A stretch of 21,794 bases of DNA from a virus. The notes under the pieces are model-generated. The model did not search any database, was not told where the DNA came from, and was given only the letters and a program-made list of their open reading frames with translations. The DNA lies in the IMG/VR virus record IMGVR_UViG_3300015371_000207, positions 1 to 21,794 of that record. One strand, given 5' to 3'. The position numbers were made by a program, and so were the translations under genes. How positions within the stretch are numbered: the stretch's first letter is position 1; every line of letters starts with the position of its first letter. Shown piece by piece: positions 4,600 through 18,176 of this stretch.

Positions 4600-5811
4600 C
4601 TACTCCACCGTTAGAAACATCCCGCATCGCTCCCGCGCCAAGTCCGCGTTACGTGCGTCCAAGTCGATGCCGATGGCGTCCCTGCCGTGACCCGTAGCCA
4701 CCTGCAGCGTCGTCCCCGAACCCGCGAACGGGTCGAGAACTACGCCTGGGCGATAGTCGTCGTGACCGCAATCCGACCAACCGAGCGTTATGTTCTTACG
4801 GTGCCGGTCCTCGGGTGATAGCCCATTGCCCCGCCTATCGCGCTCCTGCGTCTTGTGTCTCACGTTCGGATCGTCGGTAGCGCCGTCGAACATTGCCCCG
4901 CCGAGAATCGCCGCATACTCCGCGTCCGGTTCCGTGATGCGTTCGGAGGGTTCCCCGCACACCCGGCAGACGCGCTCCGGGCACATCGCCCTGATCGGCC
5001 TAACGCACAACTCCCGCGGGAACGTCGCGTAATGCGAGCCGGCGTACGGTTCGGTGGGTATCTGCCACCAATCCAACGGAGGCGCGCCCGCGGCGTTTCC
5101 AGCCATCGGCGTGACAGCTCCGTTACCGGCGGGGTTCCCCTTCGTGTACCCGTTGCCCGTGTACGTCGCCGGGTCCTGCGTCGGCGTCGTTCGTACGGCG
5201 TCGAGGTCGAAATCCCGCCGCGGCGATTGGCACGCCACGACCATTTCTGAGGTTGCGGGACGGAACTTGTCGCCCAACGCTCCCACCGGAGGGTTCGGGC
5301 GGCACCAGCGGACCACGTTCCGCGCCCGCCACCGCGGCGTCTCGCGGCCGGTTAGCGGGTTGAACCCGTACACCAACGAAATGCGGTAAATCTCAGGGAT
5401 AAGACACAGAGACTTCGCTTGCGGCCAGTCCGGGTTCACGCCGAGGATGCGCGACGCGTTGCGGCGGGCGGACGCGGAGCCGACGAACTTCGGTGCGTCC
5501 TCTCGTAGCCCGTGGGCGTTGTAGTCCCCGCCCGCGCCACCGGAACCGCTGTACGTGTCCCCCAACTCGACACAAATGCTCCCGTGCGGTGCGAGGACCC
5601 GCGCCCACTCCTCCGTGAGAGCGAGCAGCGTGTCGATAAACGCGCCCGGAGTCGGTTCGCTACCAATCTCTTTCGCCTTGTCCGGATGGTCAGCGGGAAG
5701 GTAACTCCGCAACGCGAGAAACGGCGGGGACGTGAGCACCAGGTCCACGCTGTTATCGGGGATCGTCGCGAGAACATCGAACACGTCCCCCACGATGAAG
5801 CGGGCCGTCAT
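4600..5811 (-). CDS. DNA methyltransferase, beta class (N4-cytosine or N6-adenine)
   Basis: A 403-aa enzyme starting at the ATG at 5811-5809, which overlaps the upstream stop as ATGA; the longer open frame upstream belongs to the neighbour's shadow. Motif IV comes first, LTSPPF at residues 26-31, and motif I comes last, DPFAGSGTTL at about 360-369 followed by GID. That IV-TRD-I order defines the beta class. SPPF is commoner in N4-cytosine enzymes, but N6-adenine specificity cannot be excluded. A Cys cluster (CPERVCRVCGEP, plus a later SDCGH) lies between the motifs and probably binds zinc, as in many actinophage methyltransferases. No restriction partner is adjacent, so it is likely an orphan enzyme for host-restriction evasion. 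Confidence 0.88.
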   Translation of the reverse strand: MTARFIVGDVFDVLATIPDNSVDLVLTSPPFLALRSYLPADHPDKAKEIGSEPTPGAFIDTLLALTEEWARVLAPHGSICVELGDTYSGSGGAGGDYNAHGLREDAPKFVGSASARRNASRILGVNPDWPQAKSLCLIPEIYRISLVYGFNPLTGRETPRWRARNVVRWCRPNPPVGALGDKFRPATSEMVVACQSPRRDFDLDAVRTTPTQDPATYTGNGYTKGNPAGNGAVTPMAGNAAGAPPLDWWQIPTEPYAGSHYATFPRELCVRPIRAMCPERVCRVCGEPSERITEPDAEYAAILGGAMFDGATDDPNVRHKTQERDRRGNGLSPEDRHRKNITLGWSDCGHDDYRPGVVLDPFAGSGTTLQVATGHGRDAIGIDLDARNADLARERCGMFLTVE

Positions 5812-6335
5812 CGGGTCGCGGCCCACGGGGCGAGGTTGCGGCCACCGTCGGACAGGACATAGACGCACTGGCGTTGCCCGTCGACGGTGTACGGGTCCAT
5901 GCCCGCGCACGCGCCGGGGTGGTCGCCCGTCCGATAATGGGAAAGCAGGGTTTGCGCGCACCCGTACGCGCCCGACGGGTTCCGGGCGTTCGGGTTCCCG
6001 CCCGACTCGCGTTCGATGATGTAGTCGGGGATCACGAACCCGGTACACGCCCCCCGGGCGGCGCCCGTCGAGCTAGGCGGCGGTGCGGGCCGGCCGGGCG
6101 GAGCGATCACCCGACCGGCCCGCGGTAGCGCGGTCGCGGCCGTGTTCCACGCTCGAGCGGCGTTCCATTGGACGGCGGACACCATACGGACGGCGTGAAC
6201 CAAACCGGGGCCCGGTGTCGGGCCCGGCGCCGTGCTCGCGGCGGTGGGGTTTGCGAGGGCAAGTGCCACCGCGAACACGGCACCGATCACGCTAGGCGGC
6301 CGTCCCCGCGCGCCTGCGGGCACGCACGACGACAT
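5808..6335 (-). CDS. Secreted lytic-transglycosylase/lysozyme-like protein
   Basis: A 175-aa product. Residues 10-34 look like a signal peptide: Arg residues, then a hydrophobic VIGAVFAVALALA core and a small-residue cleavage area. A Pro-rich linker (about 78-92) precedes a C-terminal domain with IIERESGGNPNARNPSGAYG, the SLT/Rpf-like pattern in which the Glu of ESGG (residue 110) is the expected catalytic acid and GAYG-CAQ matches the G-A-x-G-xxQ motif. Cys97, Cys126, Cys143 and Cys157 could form disulphides outside the cell. Inferred role is peptidoglycan cleavage. An alternative GTG start at 6290, 1 nt after the upstream small gene's stop, would give 160 aa and a shorter signal peptide. 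The stop overlaps the methyltransferase start. Confidence 0.78.
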   Translation of the reverse strand: MSSCVPAGARGRPPSVIGAVFAVALALANPTAASTAPGPTPGPGLVHAVRMVSAVQWNAARAWNTAATALPRAGRVIAPPGRPAPPPSSTGAARGACTGFVIPDYIIERESGGNPNARNPSGAYGCAQTLLSHYRTGDHPGACAGMDPYTVDGQRQCVYVLSDGGRNLAPWAATR

Positions 6336-6495: not shown

Positions 6496-6693
6496 TTAGC
6501 CCGCCGTCGATCGTAGAACGCCGGTCATGTGAAGCATTCGCCGGAGCCGCACTCGCCGGGACCGTCGTCGCCACCCTCTGTCGGTTGTGTCCAACGCCGC
6601 TAGGCGCATACGAGCATCACACTGGCAGTGGTCGTCACAGCCGCAACCGTCAAGTGACCACACAATCCCCTTGCCGCACGTCGGACAGGTCAT
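6496..6693 (-). CDS. Small Cys-rich (zinc-ribbon-like) protein, 65 aa
   Basis: ATG 6693 sits exactly at the end of a start-associated repeat (6691-6720), which carries the ribosome site. The N-terminal third has CPTC, CGC and CQC (Cys 3, 6, 17, 19, 23, 25), a plausible zinc-binding module. The C-terminal half reads through another copy of the repeat (TTDRGWRR) and becomes Arg-rich, so the true end of the functional protein or an eroded following gene is uncertain. No named family is recognised. Confidence 0.5.
   Translation of the reverse strand: MTCPTCGKGIVWSLDGCGCDDHCQCDARMRLAALDTTDRGWRRRSRRVRLRRMLHMTGVLRSTAG
6562..6591 (-). repeat. Start-associated repeat, copy 1 (without ATG)
   Basis: Read on the minus strand it matches the other copies over ACAACCGACAGAGGG and GGCGACGA, but the expected ATG is replaced by CGG. 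It lies inside the 65-aa Cys-rich frame, so it may be a relic of a lost gene start. Confidence 0.85.
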
Positions 6694-6720
6694 TCGTCGT
6701 CTCCCTCTGTCGGTTGTGTC
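6691..6720 (-). promoter_or_regulatory. Start-associated repeat, copy 2, with ribosome site
   Basis: On the minus strand this 30-nt copy ends with the ATG of the 65-aa Cys-rich gene. It contains ACCGACAGAGGG followed by AGACGACGA; GAGGG lies about 9 nt before the ATG and serves as ribosome site. Confidence 0.85.
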
Positions 6721-6817
6721 ACGTTGCGAACCTCATGCCAACGAACAGCAGCGCGATGGTCAACAGCACGGCGCACGGAATCCACCAGGGCACGCCGTCG
6801 CGGTTCTCCCACATCAT
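6719..6817 (-). CDS. MMWE-type membrane peptide, 32 aa
   Basis: ATG at 6817-6815 is the last codon of a start-associated repeat (6815-6844). The product begins MMWENRDGVPWW and continues with one hydrophobic helix (IPCAVLLTIALLFVGM), so it is a single-pass membrane peptide. It shares its MMWE start, size and repeat-embedded start with the 26-aa peptide at 9682 on the other strand. Function unknown. Confidence 0.6.
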   Translation of the reverse strand: MMWENRDGVPWWIPCAVLLTIALLFVGMRFAT

Positions 6818-6844
6818 TCGTCGCCACCCTCTGTCGGTTGTGCC
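6815..6844 (-). promoter_or_regulatory. Start-associated repeat, copy 3, with ribosome site
   Basis: Minus-strand copy with GGCACAACCGACAGAGGG, then TGGCGACGA, then ATG. It fills the gap between the lipoprotein stop (6846) and the 32-aa membrane peptide. Confidence 0.88.
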
Positions 6845-6845
6845 G

Positions 6846-7043
6846 TCACCACCCGCCGCCCCCACCCCCACCGCCGCCGCCGCCGCCACCGTCGAGGATC
6901 GTGCAATCCCACACGCCCAAACCGGGGACGATGTGACATTCGGCAACGTCGGGCGGATATGGCGGGTCCCCTACCGGCGACAGGTCACACGCGACCAGAG
7001 TCGCCGCCAACGCCAGGGCCACGGCCAGGACCAGCCGTCTCAC
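6846..7043 (-). CDS. Phage lipoprotein with poly-glycine C-terminus, 65 aa
   Basis: GTG at 7043-7041 overlaps the upstream stop as GTGA. The N-terminus is a textbook lipoprotein signal: Arg-Arg, a Leu/Ala/Val core, and a lipobox LVAC with Cys19 as the lipidation site. The mature part has two further Cys (AECH and WDC) that could pair, and ends in about thirteen consecutive Gly and a final Trp, encoded by mixed GGN codons. Expected location is the outer face of the membrane. Prophage and phage lipoproteins often block superinfection, which is the leading guess, but nothing here proves it. Confidence 0.68.
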   Translation of the reverse strand: MRRLVLAVALALAATLVACDLSPVGDPPYPPDVAECHIVPGLGVWDCTILDGGGGGGGGGGGGGW

Positions 7044-7526: not shown

Positions 7527-7774
7527 CCCGCCCGCGGCGTTGGCCCGACCCGTTCCACTACGACGGTCCCGACCCGGGCCCGCCCGTCGCCCGGCCCGGG
7601 CCCGCCCGCCGGGTGATCGACCCGGAGGTCTTCGCCGCGATCGGCCGCGACCGCGACCTCGACGCCGGGATCGTCCGATGCCATATCTGTTACCGGCTCG
7701 TGGACCGGGGCGAGGACCGTTGCGAGTCGCACGTCGGGATGCCGGACCCGTGGCCTTCGGAGATCGTCGGGTGA
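7523..7774 (+). CDS. Small CxxC protein, 83 aa
   Basis: ATG 7523 overlaps the HTH stop as ATGA and the stop overlaps the ERF gene's GTG. The N-terminal half is Pro/Arg-rich and probably disordered (repeated PDPGPP). The C-terminal half has RCHICYRLVDRGEDRCESHVG, a CxxC...C..H arrangement that could hold one zinc. It may be a small DNA-binding accessory protein, but no family is recognised. Confidence 0.65.
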   Translation: MTRPRRWPDPFHYDGPDPGPPVARPGPARRVIDPEVFAAIGRDRDLDAGIVRCHICYRLVDRGEDRCESHVGMPDPWPSEIVG

Positions 7775-8445
7775 CCGCCGCGGACGTGGACCTGATCGCG
7801 CCGGCGTTCGTGGCGGCGTTGGGTGAACTGGGCGACGTAAGAAAGTCGAGCACCGCGAACGCGGGGACGTATTCGTATTCGTACGCCGACCTCGCGACGG
7901 TGTTGGGGTCGGTGCGCCCGGTCCTCGCCGCGCACGGTCTGGCGTTGTACCAGGCGTGCGAGGTCATAGGCGGGCTGGCGCGGGTGACGACGACGGTTCT
8001 GCACGCGTCGGGCCAGTCGATCACCCCGCCGCCGTTGGAGCTGCCGGCGGGGAACACGGCGCAGTCGGCGGGGTCCGCGATCACGTACGCGCGCCGGTAC
8101 GCGGCGCTGGCGGTGTTGGGTTTGGCGACGGAGGACGACGACGGCGCCTCATCACGCCCGCCGCCGCCGCCGCCGAGGCGCGAGTTTGATTTGGCGGCGT
8201 TCGTGAAGGCGTGCGACCAGGCTGGCGTCGACGAATACGAAGTGATGTACGTCGCCGGGATACCGGCCGGCGTCGACCTGGGCGACCTGACCGTGGAGCA
8301 TCGCCCCGCGTTGTTGACGGCGCTGGCAGAGTTGAAGGACGCCCATGGGGGACACCAGGGGTCCGGCGGCGGAAGCGTTGCTGCTTCTCCCGCACCGCAG
8401 CCGGACCCCGCCGCCACCGACACCGAAGGCGAGGACGGCGAGTGA
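7771..8445 (+). CDS. erf: ERF-family single-strand annealing protein
   Basis: A 224-aa protein from GTG 7771 (GTGA overlap). The first 125 residues carry the ERF signature: YSYADLATVLGSVRPVL (36-52), VTTTVLHASGQSI (72-84), and AGSAITYARRYAALAVLGL (100-118) ending in an acidic EDDDG. ERF proteins, named from phage P22 Erf, anneal complementary single strands and promote recombination or circularisation of phage DNA. A poly-Pro stretch (130-135) separates a small helical domain (about 140-200) and a disordered acidic tail, as in other ERF proteins. It is the only recombinase seen here. Confidence 0.85.
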   Translation: MTAADVDLIAPAFVAALGELGDVRKSSTANAGTYSYSYADLATVLGSVRPVLAAHGLALYQACEVIGGLARVTTTVLHASGQSITPPPLELPAGNTAQSAGSAITYARRYAALAVLGLATEDDDGASSRPPPPPPRREFDLAAFVKACDQAGVDEYEVMYVAGIPAGVDLGDLTVEHRPALLTALAELKDAHGGHQGSGGGSVAASPAPQPDPAATDTEGEDGE

Positions 8446-8600
8446 GGTTTCTGCGGTTGTGCGATGAGTGCCACGGCGACGGCCGGGTCGTCGATTTCGC
8501 GCTCGACGACCCGGTCGTCGCGTGCCCGGTTTGCGACGGTTCGCGGGTCGTCGACGCCTATCCACAGGCTGTGGATAACGCAGAAGTTAGGGGAACCTGA
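8442..8600 (+). CDS. DnaJ-type zinc-finger-like protein, 52 aa
   Basis: GTG 8442 overlaps the ERF stop. The product has two CxxCxG knuckles, CDECHGDG and CPVCDGS, spaced as in the DnaJ central zinc domain, so one zinc site is likely. The last 15 codons overlap two DnaA boxes (8558-8578), meaning the C-terminus may be set by DNA-level constraints. Function beyond zinc binding is unknown. Confidence 0.65.
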   Translation: MRFLRLCDECHGDGRVVDFALDDPVVACPVCDGSRVVDAYPQAVDNAEVRGT

Positions 8601-8760
8601 CAGGTGATGTTCTCCACAGGTTGTCCCCAGGGTTGTCCACACGGCAACCGACCGGTTTGGGGTGGTTCGTCCAGGGGTTTCGCGGGTTATCCACAGATTT
8701 TGGGTGCCCCTACTACTACAACTACTGATAATTCAAGTTTTAGAAGTGTCTTAGATAGGG
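8558..8760 (+). other. Putative replication origin: DnaA-box cluster plus DnaA-trio-like AT-rich tract
   Basis: Matches to the 9-mer TTATCCACA/TTGTCCACA: CTATCCACA 8558-8566 (one mismatch), TGTGGATAA 8570-8578 (exact, minus strand), TTCTCCACA 8610-8618 (one mismatch), TTGTCCCCA 8621-8629 (one mismatch), TTGTCCACA 8633-8641 (exact), TTATCCACA 8687-8695 (exact). After the last box comes a GC patch (GGGTGCCCC) and then CTACTACTACAACTACTG (8710-8727). Its complement reads mostly 3'-GAT-5' triplets, the pattern of the DnaA-trio element that loads DnaA on single strands in bacterial oriC. Bases 8711-8760 are 16/50 GC (32%), far below the surrounding DNA, as expected for an unwinding element. Origin function is inference. 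Confidence 0.6.
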
Positions 8761-8786
8761 CCGCGCGGGTCGGGGTGGCGCGGTGA
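8604..8786 (+). CDS. Doubtful small ORF across the putative origin, 60 aa
   Basis: For it: GTG 8604 has AGGGG about 10 nt upstream and the stop overlaps the next gene's GTG (GTGA), the usual junction style here. Against it: the frame translates the DnaA boxes (FSTGCPQGCPH) and the trio-like tract (a run of five Thr), its composition is unlike its neighbours, and no family is recognised. I think the DNA is mainly a regulatory or origin segment. Confidence 0.25.
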   Translation: MMFSTGCPQGCPHGNRPVWGGSSRGFAGYPQILGAPTTTTTDNSSFRSVLDRAARVGVAR

Positions 8787-8986
8787 CTCCGAGGTTCGAC
8801 AAGGACGGGTTCTATATTCCGGGGTCGAACCGGACGCTGCGACCCGGCGATACCGCTGAGCGTGCGAGAGTGCTCGAGCGGGTACGGGAGGCGCGAGCGA
8901 AGTTGAATCTGCCGAAAAGCAAACGGCGACAACGCGAAGGGGAGCGGGGCGTCGTGGCACTACCGACAGAGGGTGGCGACGAATGA
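8783..8986 (+). CDS. Small basic helical protein, 67 aa
   Basis: GTG 8783 is the first start after the AT-rich tract. The product has an amphipathic, strongly charged helix (AERARVLERVREARAKLNLP, residues 25-44), a basic KSKRRQR patch and the C-terminal ALPTEGGDE, which is encoded by the start-associated repeat of the next gene. It might bind nucleic acid, judged only from charge and its place beside the putative origin. Stop and next ATG overlap. Confidence 0.6.
   Translation: MTPRFDKDGFYIPGSNRTLRPGDTAERARVLERVREARAKLNLPKSKRRQREGERGVVALPTEGGDE
8956..8985 (+). promoter_or_regulatory. Start-associated repeat, copy 4, with ribosome site
   Basis: GGCACTACCGACAGAGGG, then TGGCGACGA, then the ATG of the gene at 8983. 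The copy is identical over its 30 nt to the one at 9655-9684. It also encodes the last residues of the preceding protein. Confidence 0.9.
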
Positions 8987-9228
8987 AGGCGGTTCGTCGG
9001 TGGTGGGAGTCCACGCTTCAATGTGCCGTTGGCGTCCATCGCGCTTGCGACGGTCGCGCATGGCTACGACGACCGCCATGGAACGCGCCGTGCGAATGCC
9101 GTTGTCATTGCGGTTGTTACGGCTGCAGCGAAGAGAGTGACGACAGACCGCGGTGTCACGTTTGCGACAGTGGCCCGCTCGACATGGTGACCGCGCCGCA
9201 CGATTGCATCGTGGGTGACGACAAATGA
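8983..9228 (+). CDS. Cys-rich small protein, 81 aa
   Basis: ATG 8983 ends the copy-4 repeat and overlaps the upstream stop (ATGA). The product has ten Cys, with CECRCHCGCYGC in the centre and CHVC near residue 59, so it likely binds one or more zinc ions. The N-terminal part has a basic, Trp-rich segment. No family recognised. The next ATG overlaps its stop and is preceded by GGGTGACGACAA, a weak relative of the start-associated repeat. Confidence 0.6.
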   Translation: MKAVRRWWESTLQCAVGVHRACDGRAWLRRPPWNAPCECRCHCGCYGCSEESDDRPRCHVCDSGPLDMVTAPHDCIVGDDK

Positions 9229-9492: not shown

Positions 9493-9520
9493 GGCACCAC
9501 CGACAGGGTGACGACGAATG
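9493..9520 (+). promoter_or_regulatory. Start-associated repeat, copy 5 (28 nt, two bases shorter)
   Basis: GGCACCACCGACAG-GGTGACGACGA then the ATG at 9518. Two bases are missing in the AGAGGG section relative to the other copies. It fills the 35-nt gap after the 85-aa gene. Confidence 0.85.
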
Positions 9521-9685
9521 AGCGATTGCCCGGTCCAACACATCGGCTGCTACGGCCCGCTGCGGGCCGTCCGATCCGTCGTCTGGAAGTGCGACGCGTG
9601 TGAGCACCTTCGGACAGTGACGGTTGTGCCTCCATGCCCTAGCCCTATCTGCGGGGCACTACCGACAGAGGGTGGCGACGAATGA
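9518..9685 (+). CDS. Small zinc-ribbon-like protein, 55 aa
   Basis: ATG 9518 is the last codon of repeat copy 5. The product has Cys4, Cys11, CDAC at 25-28, Cys39 and Cys44, enough for one or two zinc sites. It ends CGALPTEGGDE; the last nine residues are shared with the 67-aa protein at 8783 because both gene ends lie in a start-associated repeat. The stop overlaps the ATG of the next gene. Confidence 0.55.
   Translation: MSDCPVQHIGCYGPLRAVRSVVWKCDACEHLRTVTVVPPCPSPICGALPTEGGDE
9655..9684 (+). promoter_or_regulatory. Start-associated repeat, copy 6, with ribosome site
   Basis: Same 30 nt as copy 4, ending at ATG 9684. The following bases ATGTGGGAG also match the start of the minus-strand gene at 6817, so homology with copy 3 extends into the coding region. 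Confidence 0.9.
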
Positions 9686-9762
9686 TGTGGGAGGTCGGTG
9701 TCGGCGCGGTGATCGCGGTGGTGTTCCTACTGGTAGCCCACCTGTGGGTGGGGCGCCGGTGA
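9682..9762 (+). CDS. MMWE-type membrane peptide, 26 aa
   Basis: Starts in repeat copy 6 and is one hydrophobic helix between MMWE and a basic GRR end: VGVGAVIAVVFLLVAHLWV. The topology would be a single-pass membrane peptide. It resembles the 32-aa peptide at 6719-6817 in its first four residues, size and embedded start. The stop overlaps the nuclease GTG. Function unknown. Confidence 0.55.
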   Translation: MMWEVGVGAVIAVVFLLVAHLWVGRR

Positions 9763-10139
9763 CGCACGCCGAACTGCAGGCGATGGTGTGCCAGCTGGCG
9801 CACATCATGGGTTGGCGGTGGCTGCACGTCCGCCGGTCGATCGGCAAAGGCCACCGGTGGGCGACGACCACGAACATCGTCGGCTGGCCCGACCTGATCC
9901 TCTGGTCCCCCCGCCAACCAGGCCGGCAGCTCGCGGTCGAACTGAAAGTGCCGCCCGACAAGTTGACCGACGACCAGGCCGCCGTGCTCGGCGACCTCGC
10001 CGCGGCCGGGTGGGAATGTTACGTCGTCACCCCCGACGCCCCGAAGGCGGCGGCCCCCTATCGGGTCGGGCTCGACGACGTCCCCCACCTGTTCGACCGG
10101 TCCAGCATCACCGCCGCCCCCGGTCCCGCTACGGCATGA
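9759..10139 (+). CDS. VRR-NUC domain nuclease
   Basis: A 126-aa protein from GTG 9759 (GTGA overlap). The VRR-NUC fold shows NIVGWPDLILW (39-49) with Asp45, LAVELKVP (58-65) with the ExK pair Glu61/Lys63, then Gln73 and the WECYVVTP strand. These are the PD-(D/E)xK-type metal-binding residues. Family members include Holliday-junction and structure-specific nucleases, and stand-alone phage forms probably process recombination or replication intermediates. It pairs well with the ERF protein of the same operon. Confidence 0.88.
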   Translation: MTHAELQAMVCQLAHIMGWRWLHVRRSIGKGHRWATTTNIVGWPDLILWSPRQPGRQLAVELKVPPDKLTDDQAAVLGDLAAAGWECYVVTPDAPKAAAPYRVGLDDVPHLFDRSSITAAPGPATA

Positions 10140-16406: not shown

Positions 16407-18176
16407 GTGACCAGGCCGCATCACACGGCGACGTACAAGGCGGCGCGCTCGCGATTGTTAGCGGCCGGCCCGGAGTGTTGGGTACCGGGCTGCCATGAGC
16501 GGGCGACGGTCGCGGACCACCAGCCGCCGCTCCTGCTGCACACCCATTTGGGTGAGGGTCGGGGGTGTTGCGTTCTGGTCCCCCAGTGCGCCCGCCACTC
16601 GGGTGAGCAGGGGTCGATGATCCGCGACGGGGTCCGGCCGCCGGCGCCGTGGGATTCGACGACGGAGGTCGACGATCCGGCCGGGTTCCCGGCGGCGAGC
16701 CCGGTGTGGGACGCCGAATGGTTGGCCGACCTGCGCGACGTCCCCGCCGACGCGGTGTGGCCGCGCCTGATGACCCCGCCGCACCCCGACGCGGTCGGGT
16801 CGTACGGCGACGACTTCTGCGGGTCGGCCGGGTACCGGTCGGGTCGGCCGTTGCGGTGGTGGCAGCGCCTGGTCGCGGTCCGCCTGCTCGAGCATGACGG
16901 GGCGGGCCGGCTGGTGTGGGATTGCCTGTTGTTGACGTTGGCCCGCCAGCTCGGCAAATCGTGGCTACTGCGGGAACTGTTCTGGTGGCGGATGCATCAG
17001 GGCGCCCGGTTCGGCGAACCGCAACTGGTGTTGCACACCGGTAAGGACGTCGGGGTGTGCAAAGAGGTCCAACGCCCCGCCCGTCTCCACGCGAAACACC
17101 AGGCCAACCGGGGTGTGTACGCGGTGCGGGAAGTGAACGGTCAGGAGGAGATCGAACTGGTCGAAGACGGGTCCCGGTGGATGGTGCGGGCCCGTACCGC
17201 GGTGTACGGCTATTCGAGCTCGGTCGCCGGTGTCGATGAGGCGTGGAAGGTCGCCGCCGAGGTCGTCGACGACGGTGTCACCCCCACGATGGTCGAACGG
17301 GAACAGCCGCAGCTGCTGCTGGTGTCGACCGCGCACCGGCGGGCCACGTCGCTGATGTTGAACCGGCGCCGGTTGGCGCTCGACTGTTTCGACCGTCCCG
17401 CCGACGCTGACCTGCTGATCGAATGGTCCGCGCCACGCGGCGCCGCCGTCGACGACCGGGCCGGGTGGCGGGCCGCGTCGCCGCACTGGACACCCCAACG
17501 CGAAAGGATCGTCGCGAAAGCGCTTGAGGGGGCGTTGCGGGGCGAGAACACCGACATCGACGAACCCGACCCGGTCGAAGCGTTCCGGTCCCAATGGTTG
17601 AACATTTGGCCCGCGATGCTGGTCCGACCCGGGAAAGGCGAACCGCTACTGACCGCGGTCGACCGGTGGGCGGCCGCCCGCACCTCCGACGACGGTGCCG
17701 GGCCGGCGGTGTTCGGGGTCGAGGACTGGTTCGGGAAAGGCGCCGCCGTCGCGGTGGCCCGCACCCTCGACGACGGGCGGGTCATCGTCGCCGGATGGGA
17801 ATACCCGCGCCGGTCGGACGCGTACGCCGCTTTGGCGGTCCTCGCCGACCGGGTCCCCGGGTCACGACTGGTCGTCGGCGCCACCCTCGCCGGCGACCCC
17901 GACCTCGCCGACATGCCCGTCCTCGACGTGACCCCCGCTACCGGCGTGAAAACACGGGCCGGCCTGTCGCTGGTCCGCGAACTGGTCGACGACGGCCGCC
18001 TGGCGTGGGACCCCGACGACGGCGACCAGCTCGACGAACAGTTACGCGCCGCCCGGGTCCAACCGTTGTCGACCGGGTTGGCGCTCGTCTCCGGCACCCG
18101 CGCCGACCTGCTACGCGCCGCGGCGTGGGCGGTCGCCGAGATCACCACCGCACAACCCGCGCCCGCCATCCTGTAA
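16407..18176 (+). CDS. terL: Terminase large subunit with N-terminal HNH-like zinc module
   Basis: A 589-aa protein from GTG 16407. Residues 20-70 look like an HNH/treble-clef module: C24-x4-C29, VADHQPP (His38), CC54-55, and VPQCARHSGEQG. The ATPase follows, with Walker A-like ARQLGKS (179-185) and Walker B VAGVDEAW (273-280). The C-terminal half is the RNase-H-like nuclease: FGVEDWFGKG (Glu439/Asp440), a DLADMPVLDVTP region, and GTRADLLRAAAWA with Asp567. The enzyme cuts concatemers and pumps DNA into the prohead. HNH partners of terminases are usually separate genes, so the fusion is unusual. No small terminase gene is recognised. Confidence 0.9.
   Translation: MTRPHHTATYKAARSRLLAAGPECWVPGCHERATVADHQPPLLLHTHLGEGRGCCVLVPQCARHSGEQGSMIRDGVRPPAPWDSTTEVDDPAGFPAASPVWDAEWLADLRDVPADAVWPRLMTPPHPDAVGSYGDDFCGSAGYRSGRPLRWWQRLVAVRLLEHDGAGRLVWDCLLLTLARQLGKSWLLRELFWWRMHQGARFGEPQLVLHTGKDVGVCKEVQRPARLHAKHQANRGVYAVREVNGQEEIELVEDGSRWMVRARTAVYGYSSSVAGVDEAWKVAAEVVDDGVTPTMVEREQPQLLLVSTAHRRATSLMLNRRRLALDCFDRPADADLLIEWSAPRGAAVDDRAGWRAASPHWTPQRERIVAKALEGALRGENTDIDEPDPVEAFRSQWLNIWPAMLVRPGKGEPLLTAVDRWAAARTSDDGAGPAVFGVEDWFGKGAAVAVARTLDDGRVIVAGWEYPRRSDAYAALAVLADRVPGSRLVVGATLAGDPDLADMPVLDVTPATGVKTRAGLSLVRELVDDGRLAWDPDDGDQLDEQLRAARVQPLSTGLALVSGTRADLLRAAAWAVAEITTAQPAPAIL

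Follow-up and report, generated by a model that had tools for sequence, protein, structure and literature searches.

Positions 8558-8757 of the window, which is the whole stretch of 21,794 bp analysed here (an IMG/VR virus record that is a linear and incomplete fragment), are probably the site at which a tailed phage of actinobacteria starts to replicate, an origin opened by the DnaA protein of its host. The sequence-only reading had proposed that the phage may recruit host DnaA to open its genome, and this idea was supported by three independent sequence tests: the occurrence of the same signature in bacterial genomes, its polarity in virus records and the corresponding locus of the homologous phage L007. 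Taken together, the three tests favour a DnaA-dependent origin over DnaA titration or chance. This candidate origin is similar to the chromosomal basal unwinding system (BUS) and is not a chromosomal oriC; as a putative DnaA-opened element it also differs from the phage origins compared here, which rely on a phage initiator. No description of a DnaA-trio in a phage was found in our literature search, which had most subscription journals outside its reach.

The phage record and its recombination genes

The predicted large subunit of the terminase (16407-18176, plus strand; phrog_9, E 2e-22) shows that the record belongs to a tailed phage, and its matches, which include 251 named phages, all 251 from actinobacterial genera, point to an actinobacterial host. 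Genes for portal, protease and capsid are also present in the window. A DNA similarity search of the region against named phages gave no match, and neither IMG/VR nor about 85,000 genomes yielded relatives when probed with the portal. Upstream of the element is a gene for an Erf-type ssDNA annealing protein (7771-8445, plus strand; PHROG 2324, E 5e-31, and PHROG 155, E 2e-26), whose open frame extends from 7330, the GTG at 7771 being the putative start; the protein is 43-46% identical to the Erf proteins of L007 and L008. It is followed by a gene for a small CxxCxG zinc-type protein (8442-8600, plus strand) with a weak DnaJ CXXCXGXG match (E 6e-5 for the 8211-8600 frame, under the Pfam cut-off). 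For the first small ORF 3' of the element (8783-8986, plus strand), PHROG and Pfam scans gave no match. Further downstream, a VRR-NUC nuclease gene of the Holliday-junction-resolvase-like type (9624-10139, plus strand; PF08774, E 2.4e-8; PHROG 5702, E 7e-4) is a member of the recombination module.

No replication initiator was matched among the window ORFs scanned, DnaB helicase is missing from both the window and L007, and neither DnaA nor DnaN appears among the family matches of the window. The lack of replication genes had been explained earlier by the recruitment of DnaA, but it is weak evidence by itself because the record is a linear fragment. The GC skew of the window is too weak for placing an origin.

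Two other features of the gene surroundings were observed. A repeat, CACTACCGACAGAGGGTGGCGACGAATGA, is located on both strands at several places where the stop of one small gene overlaps the start of the next (6565-6598, 6690-6723 and 6814-6863, minus strand; 8953-8986 and 9652-9685, plus strand), with weaker copies at 9212-9228 and 9505-9521, so that several small proteins have a PTEGGDE end. This repeat is similar to start-associated sequences of some actinophages. In addition, the small protein encoded at 5808-6335 (minus strand), next to a DNA methyltransferase, has a weak match of the transglycosylase type and, by eye, is possibly Rpf-like.

The DnaA boxes, the trio and the unstable stretch

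Six DnaA boxes, three exact and three with one mismatch in 138 nt, had been read from the sequence, and all were recovered at 8558-8695. Box 1 (CTATCCACA, 8558-8566, plus strand, one mismatch) is head-to-head with box 2 (TTATCCACA, 8570-8578, minus strand, exact), and both overlap the 3' end of the small ORF at 8442-8600, which corrects the first finding. Boxes 3 (TTCTCCACA, 8610-8618, one mismatch), 4 (TTGTCCCCA, 8621-8629, one mismatch) and 5 (TTGTCCACA, 8633-8641, exact) are on the plus strand, as is the BUS-proximal box 6 (TTATCCACA, 8687-8695, exact), which is found 54 nt 3' of box 5. The sequence TTGTCCACA is the high-affinity DnaA box of Mycobacterium tuberculosis and Streptomyces coelicolor (PMC4285127, Table 1).

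Box 6 is followed by a 14-nt spacer (GATTTTGGGTGCCC, 8696-8709, plus strand), at whose 3' end the GC patch GGGTGCCC lies, between the last box and the CTA run as the earlier reading had it. The run itself was placed correctly at 8710-8727, but it is not pure CTA: the DnaA-trio-like array reads CTA CTA CTA CAA CTA CTG on the plus strand (four of six triplets CTA, one CAA and one CTG), and 3'-GAT GAT GAT GTT GAT GAC-5' on the other. The predicted unwinding element (8708-8757), previously described as 50 nt at 32% GC, has the lowest GC of any 50-mer in the window (0.32), and the proposed stability analysis also identified it as the least stable 50-mer of the entire window (z 5.8). The frame at 8604-8786, which had been named as a possible conserved protein, was rejected as such: it does not look coding, neither PHROG nor Pfam gave a match for it, and its GC by codon position (0.52/0.67/0.48) is atypical when third-position GC is 0.81-0.89 in the genes for endolysin, terminase, portal and capsid. 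When the window was simulated 300 times with a third-order Markov model, the top 138-nt box-cluster score did not exceed 1.2 (4.2 observed), a box followed by CTACTACTA within 4-16 nt never occurred, and the coincidence of box cluster, trio and the least stable site of the window was unmatched. A repeat search of 8540-8800 recovered mostly the DnaA boxes and their flanks, the remainder being short G+C-rich pairs; it detected no iteron family distinct from the DnaA boxes.

The combination of DnaA box and DnaA-trio in bacterial oriC was reportedly set out by Richardson in 2016. This BUS of bacterial oriC consists of a DnaA box and a DnaA-trio (Pelliciari 2021, PMC8287927), with at least three trios (3'-NAN-5') at most 16 bp from a box, and its spacers are commonest at 10-13 bp (PMC8287927). 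The window has the box cluster, with three exact boxes among the six, the same order and polarity of box, spacer and trio, three GAT trios in series and then GTT, GAT and GAC, and past them the AT-rich, intrinsically unstable DNA. Two features count against the reading as an origin: the CAA as fourth triplet interrupts the trio, and the spacer of 14 bp, though within the limit of 16, is outside the 10-13 peak. The latter is no defining failure, because 10-13 is a peak of frequency and not a limit. This putative BUS differs from that of bacterial oriC in that it is beside erf in a phage, flanked by phage genes and not by dnaA and dnaN, and its trio is broken once. Furthermore, the window has neither an initiator gene beside the element, as L007 does, nor non-DnaA iterons beside the AT-rich stretch, such as would be expected of an origin with its own initiator.

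The arrangement in bacterial genomes and virus records

A search for the arrangement of the window, TTATCCACA N8-18 CCTACTACTACAACTA, across about 85,000 genomes gave exactly three matches, one in a Saccharibacteria, one in a Peptostreptococcaceae and one in a Clostridiales genome. All three are directly after dnaA and ahead of dnaN, the dnaN of the first (Saccharibacteria) being a putative one read from a few codons, and the window closely resembles these three chromosomal dnaA-dnaN origins. The matches support the proposal that, among bacterial genomes, the box-trio signature marks only dnaA-dnaN origins.

In 2.9 million IMG/VR virus contigs, four arrangements of a box and a four-fold CTA were scanned, with gaps of 6-30, or 6-26 where the box was reversed. 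A box followed by a trio on one strand was found in 25 stretches, reversed box then trio in 4 (all one coding sequence), trio then box in 1, and trio then reversed box in 4, three of which are one sequence while in the fourth a box also abuts the trio. The box-trio pair is therefore enriched in virus records only in the polarity needed by the BUS. Seven of the 25 forward matches (L018, L019, L021, L026, L034, L037 and L038) were discarded as members of one coding family in which the box stands alone; the remaining 18 are in box clusters and represent 16 distinct elements, whose spacers peak at 12-13. The next box upstream of the BUS box is about 43 or 52-54 nt away, with helical phasing of about 10.7-11 bp that the window boxes at 54, 66 and 77 nt fit, the p-values of this phasing being rough as boxes of one array are not independent.

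These counts bear on a different role for the boxes, which could sequester DnaA or control a phage promoter, the AT-rich stretch then being a promoter or incidental. DnaA box clusters away from origins are known titration or regulatory sites, and the element is intergenic, with a series of small genes downstream of it. However, titration requires neither a trio nor its polarity and spacing, while virus records strongly prefer box-then-trio over the three other arrangements, with an origin-like spacer, and the melting minimum of the entire record coincides with the trio. We consider titration or regulation quite improbable, and the origin reading is retained.

A terminase or portal was recognised in the records of nine of the 16 distinct elements. 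Canonical dnaA is absent from all box-cluster BUS records; the identical L016 and L017 have a weak DnaA-domain match via a DnaC-like loader. DnaB helicase was found in only one of 17 BUS records, and its absence from the other 16, from the window and from L007 is what use of the host replisome would predict. The neighbours of ten BUS elements were scanned and gave an impression of recombination or replication context, as distinct from a count. In one record (L011) a RecT-like annealing protein is encoded 1.7 kb upstream of the BUS. In another (L033) an Erf-like protein immediately adjoins it, and this phage was picked up by its BUS alone, with no Erf probe, which supports the origin reading. 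In L017 (230-1249) and L035 (5810-6700) the BUS is inside a DnaD-like or replication-initiation gene, in the same way that the lambda origin sits within gene O; in these two, host DnaA possibly opens the DNA and a phage protein loads the helicase.

Some matches in named phages were of another kind. Arthrobacter phage Seahorse (L041) was rejected as a BUS, having four tandem DnaA boxes and no trio; these boxes (49-92, three exact) are at one end of its linear genome, outside annotated genes, and short matches similar to them are present at the genome ends of phages Tiff81, Auxilium and BillyTP. Four gokushoviruses, ssDNA Microviridae of about 5.6 kb (KT264800, L039; KT264801, L149; KX513877, L150; MT135259, L151), harbor a TTTTCAACTTTTCCACAGCCTCTACTACTACTACTACAACAAG-like stretch after TTTTCAAC/TTTCCACA arrays, outside annotated genes. 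This stretch is closely similar to the clostridial-looking oriC-dnaN stretch of MT836079 (L152; TTTTCAACTTATTCACAGCCCCTACTACTACTACTACTA), and in an ssDNA phage that replicates by rolling circle, an unwinding element of the chromosomal type would not be expected. MT836079 and MT836067 (L040) are UNVERIFIED 'Bacteriophage sp.' entries from human faeces; both read as bacterial oriC with the beginning of dnaN behind it and are thus probably bacterial at that place, and MT836067 was rejected as phage evidence.

Such phage-filed records with a bacterial oriC-dnaN suggest how the window could be a chimera, in which a piece of bacterial oriC was joined by assembly or transduction and has no phage role. 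Against this, the element is flanked on either side by phage-type genes (erf and VRR-NUC, followed by terminase, portal and capsid), the other BUS records have no dnaA domain match except for the DnaC-like loader of L016/L017, and at the same locus L007 has a different origin. Captured host DNA is accordingly a very remote explanation.

The locus in L007 and the origins of other phages

The record of L007 (24.7 kb) is the only true homologue found. Its identity to the window is 45% for TerL, 38% for the portal, 30% for the protease, 32% for the capsid (MCP) and 43% for Erf, and it encodes an integrase. After erf, L007 encodes a replication initiation protein of 119 aa (phrog_3926, E 5e-15), similar to the RepA-like initiators of the Microbacterium phages Appa and Dropshot, and two exact 20-bp repeats beside the initiator gene are followed by the 50 nt of lowest stability in that record (z 5.2). 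A search for the boxes at the same spot in homologous phages had been proposed, and it went against conservation: L007 is without a DnaA box cluster, and its locus has no CTA or TAG triplet run. The two loci share the position after erf and repeats adjoining the least stable DNA, but the window has DnaA boxes and a trio with no initiator where L007 has an initiator, its 20-bp repeats and an AT-rich stretch. The simplest reading is that one origin module may have been exchanged for another at a single locus. Conservation among Erf phages likewise was not borne out: the 80 best Erf-encoding virus loci yielded no BUS close to erf, which suggests sporadic replacement and not a family trait. In one of the 80 (L143), four boxes are located 3.3 kb upstream of the Erf match, with no trio under the criterion applied, and no close relative of the window with the same element was found.

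The origin might need a phage initiator besides host DnaA, as in P1-type replicons, whose RepA/DnaA origins use an initiator plus DnaA. Because the record is incomplete, the gene could sit in the missing part of the genome; moreover, L007 encodes a small initiator, and in L017 and L035 the BUS is inside a gene of this type. On the other hand, the initiator gene of L007 immediately follows erf, at precisely the position of the BUS in the window, no initiator was matched in the window, and the element has no iterons of its own beyond the DnaA boxes and their flanks. A co-initiator is therefore unlikely, and opening by host DnaA continues to be the preferred reading.

Host DnaA also takes part in P1 replication, in which RepA does the opening. 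Origins of the lambda and P1 type thus resemble the window in the participation of host DnaA in phage DNA replication; there, lambda O or P1 RepA is the opener and DnaA is accessory, whereas in the window DnaA would itself be the opener through the BUS. The participation of host DnaA in lambda replication is described in PMC5499656. For Pseudomonas phage PseuGes_254, an Ori-Finder prediction likewise proposes DnaA boxes and an AT-rich region as origin, and the passages on it mention no trio, comparison of arrangements or homologous locus (PMC11512268).

From these comparisons we infer DnaA binding, unwinding, helicase loading and the status of main origin. Host DnaA would bind the six boxes, chiefly the tandem boxes 3-5 and box 6. 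A DnaA filament would then grow from box 6 over the GC patch onto the 3'-GAT-5' trios and melt the AT-rich stretch, which could serve as entry point for the host replisome.

Phages are usually thought to supply their own initiator and so to escape the replication timing of the host. The chances seem about even that several unrelated phage lineages, possibly including the ssDNA gokushoviruses, have independently swapped their own initiator for a host-type system of DnaA boxes and trio, and start replication via the DnaA switch that times the host chromosome. If this is true, a BUS-dependent phage ties itself to host DnaA, which raises the question of how it over-replicates. Phage BUS would also be compact natural elements away from chromosomes, in which the parts of oriC that are sufficient could be tested.
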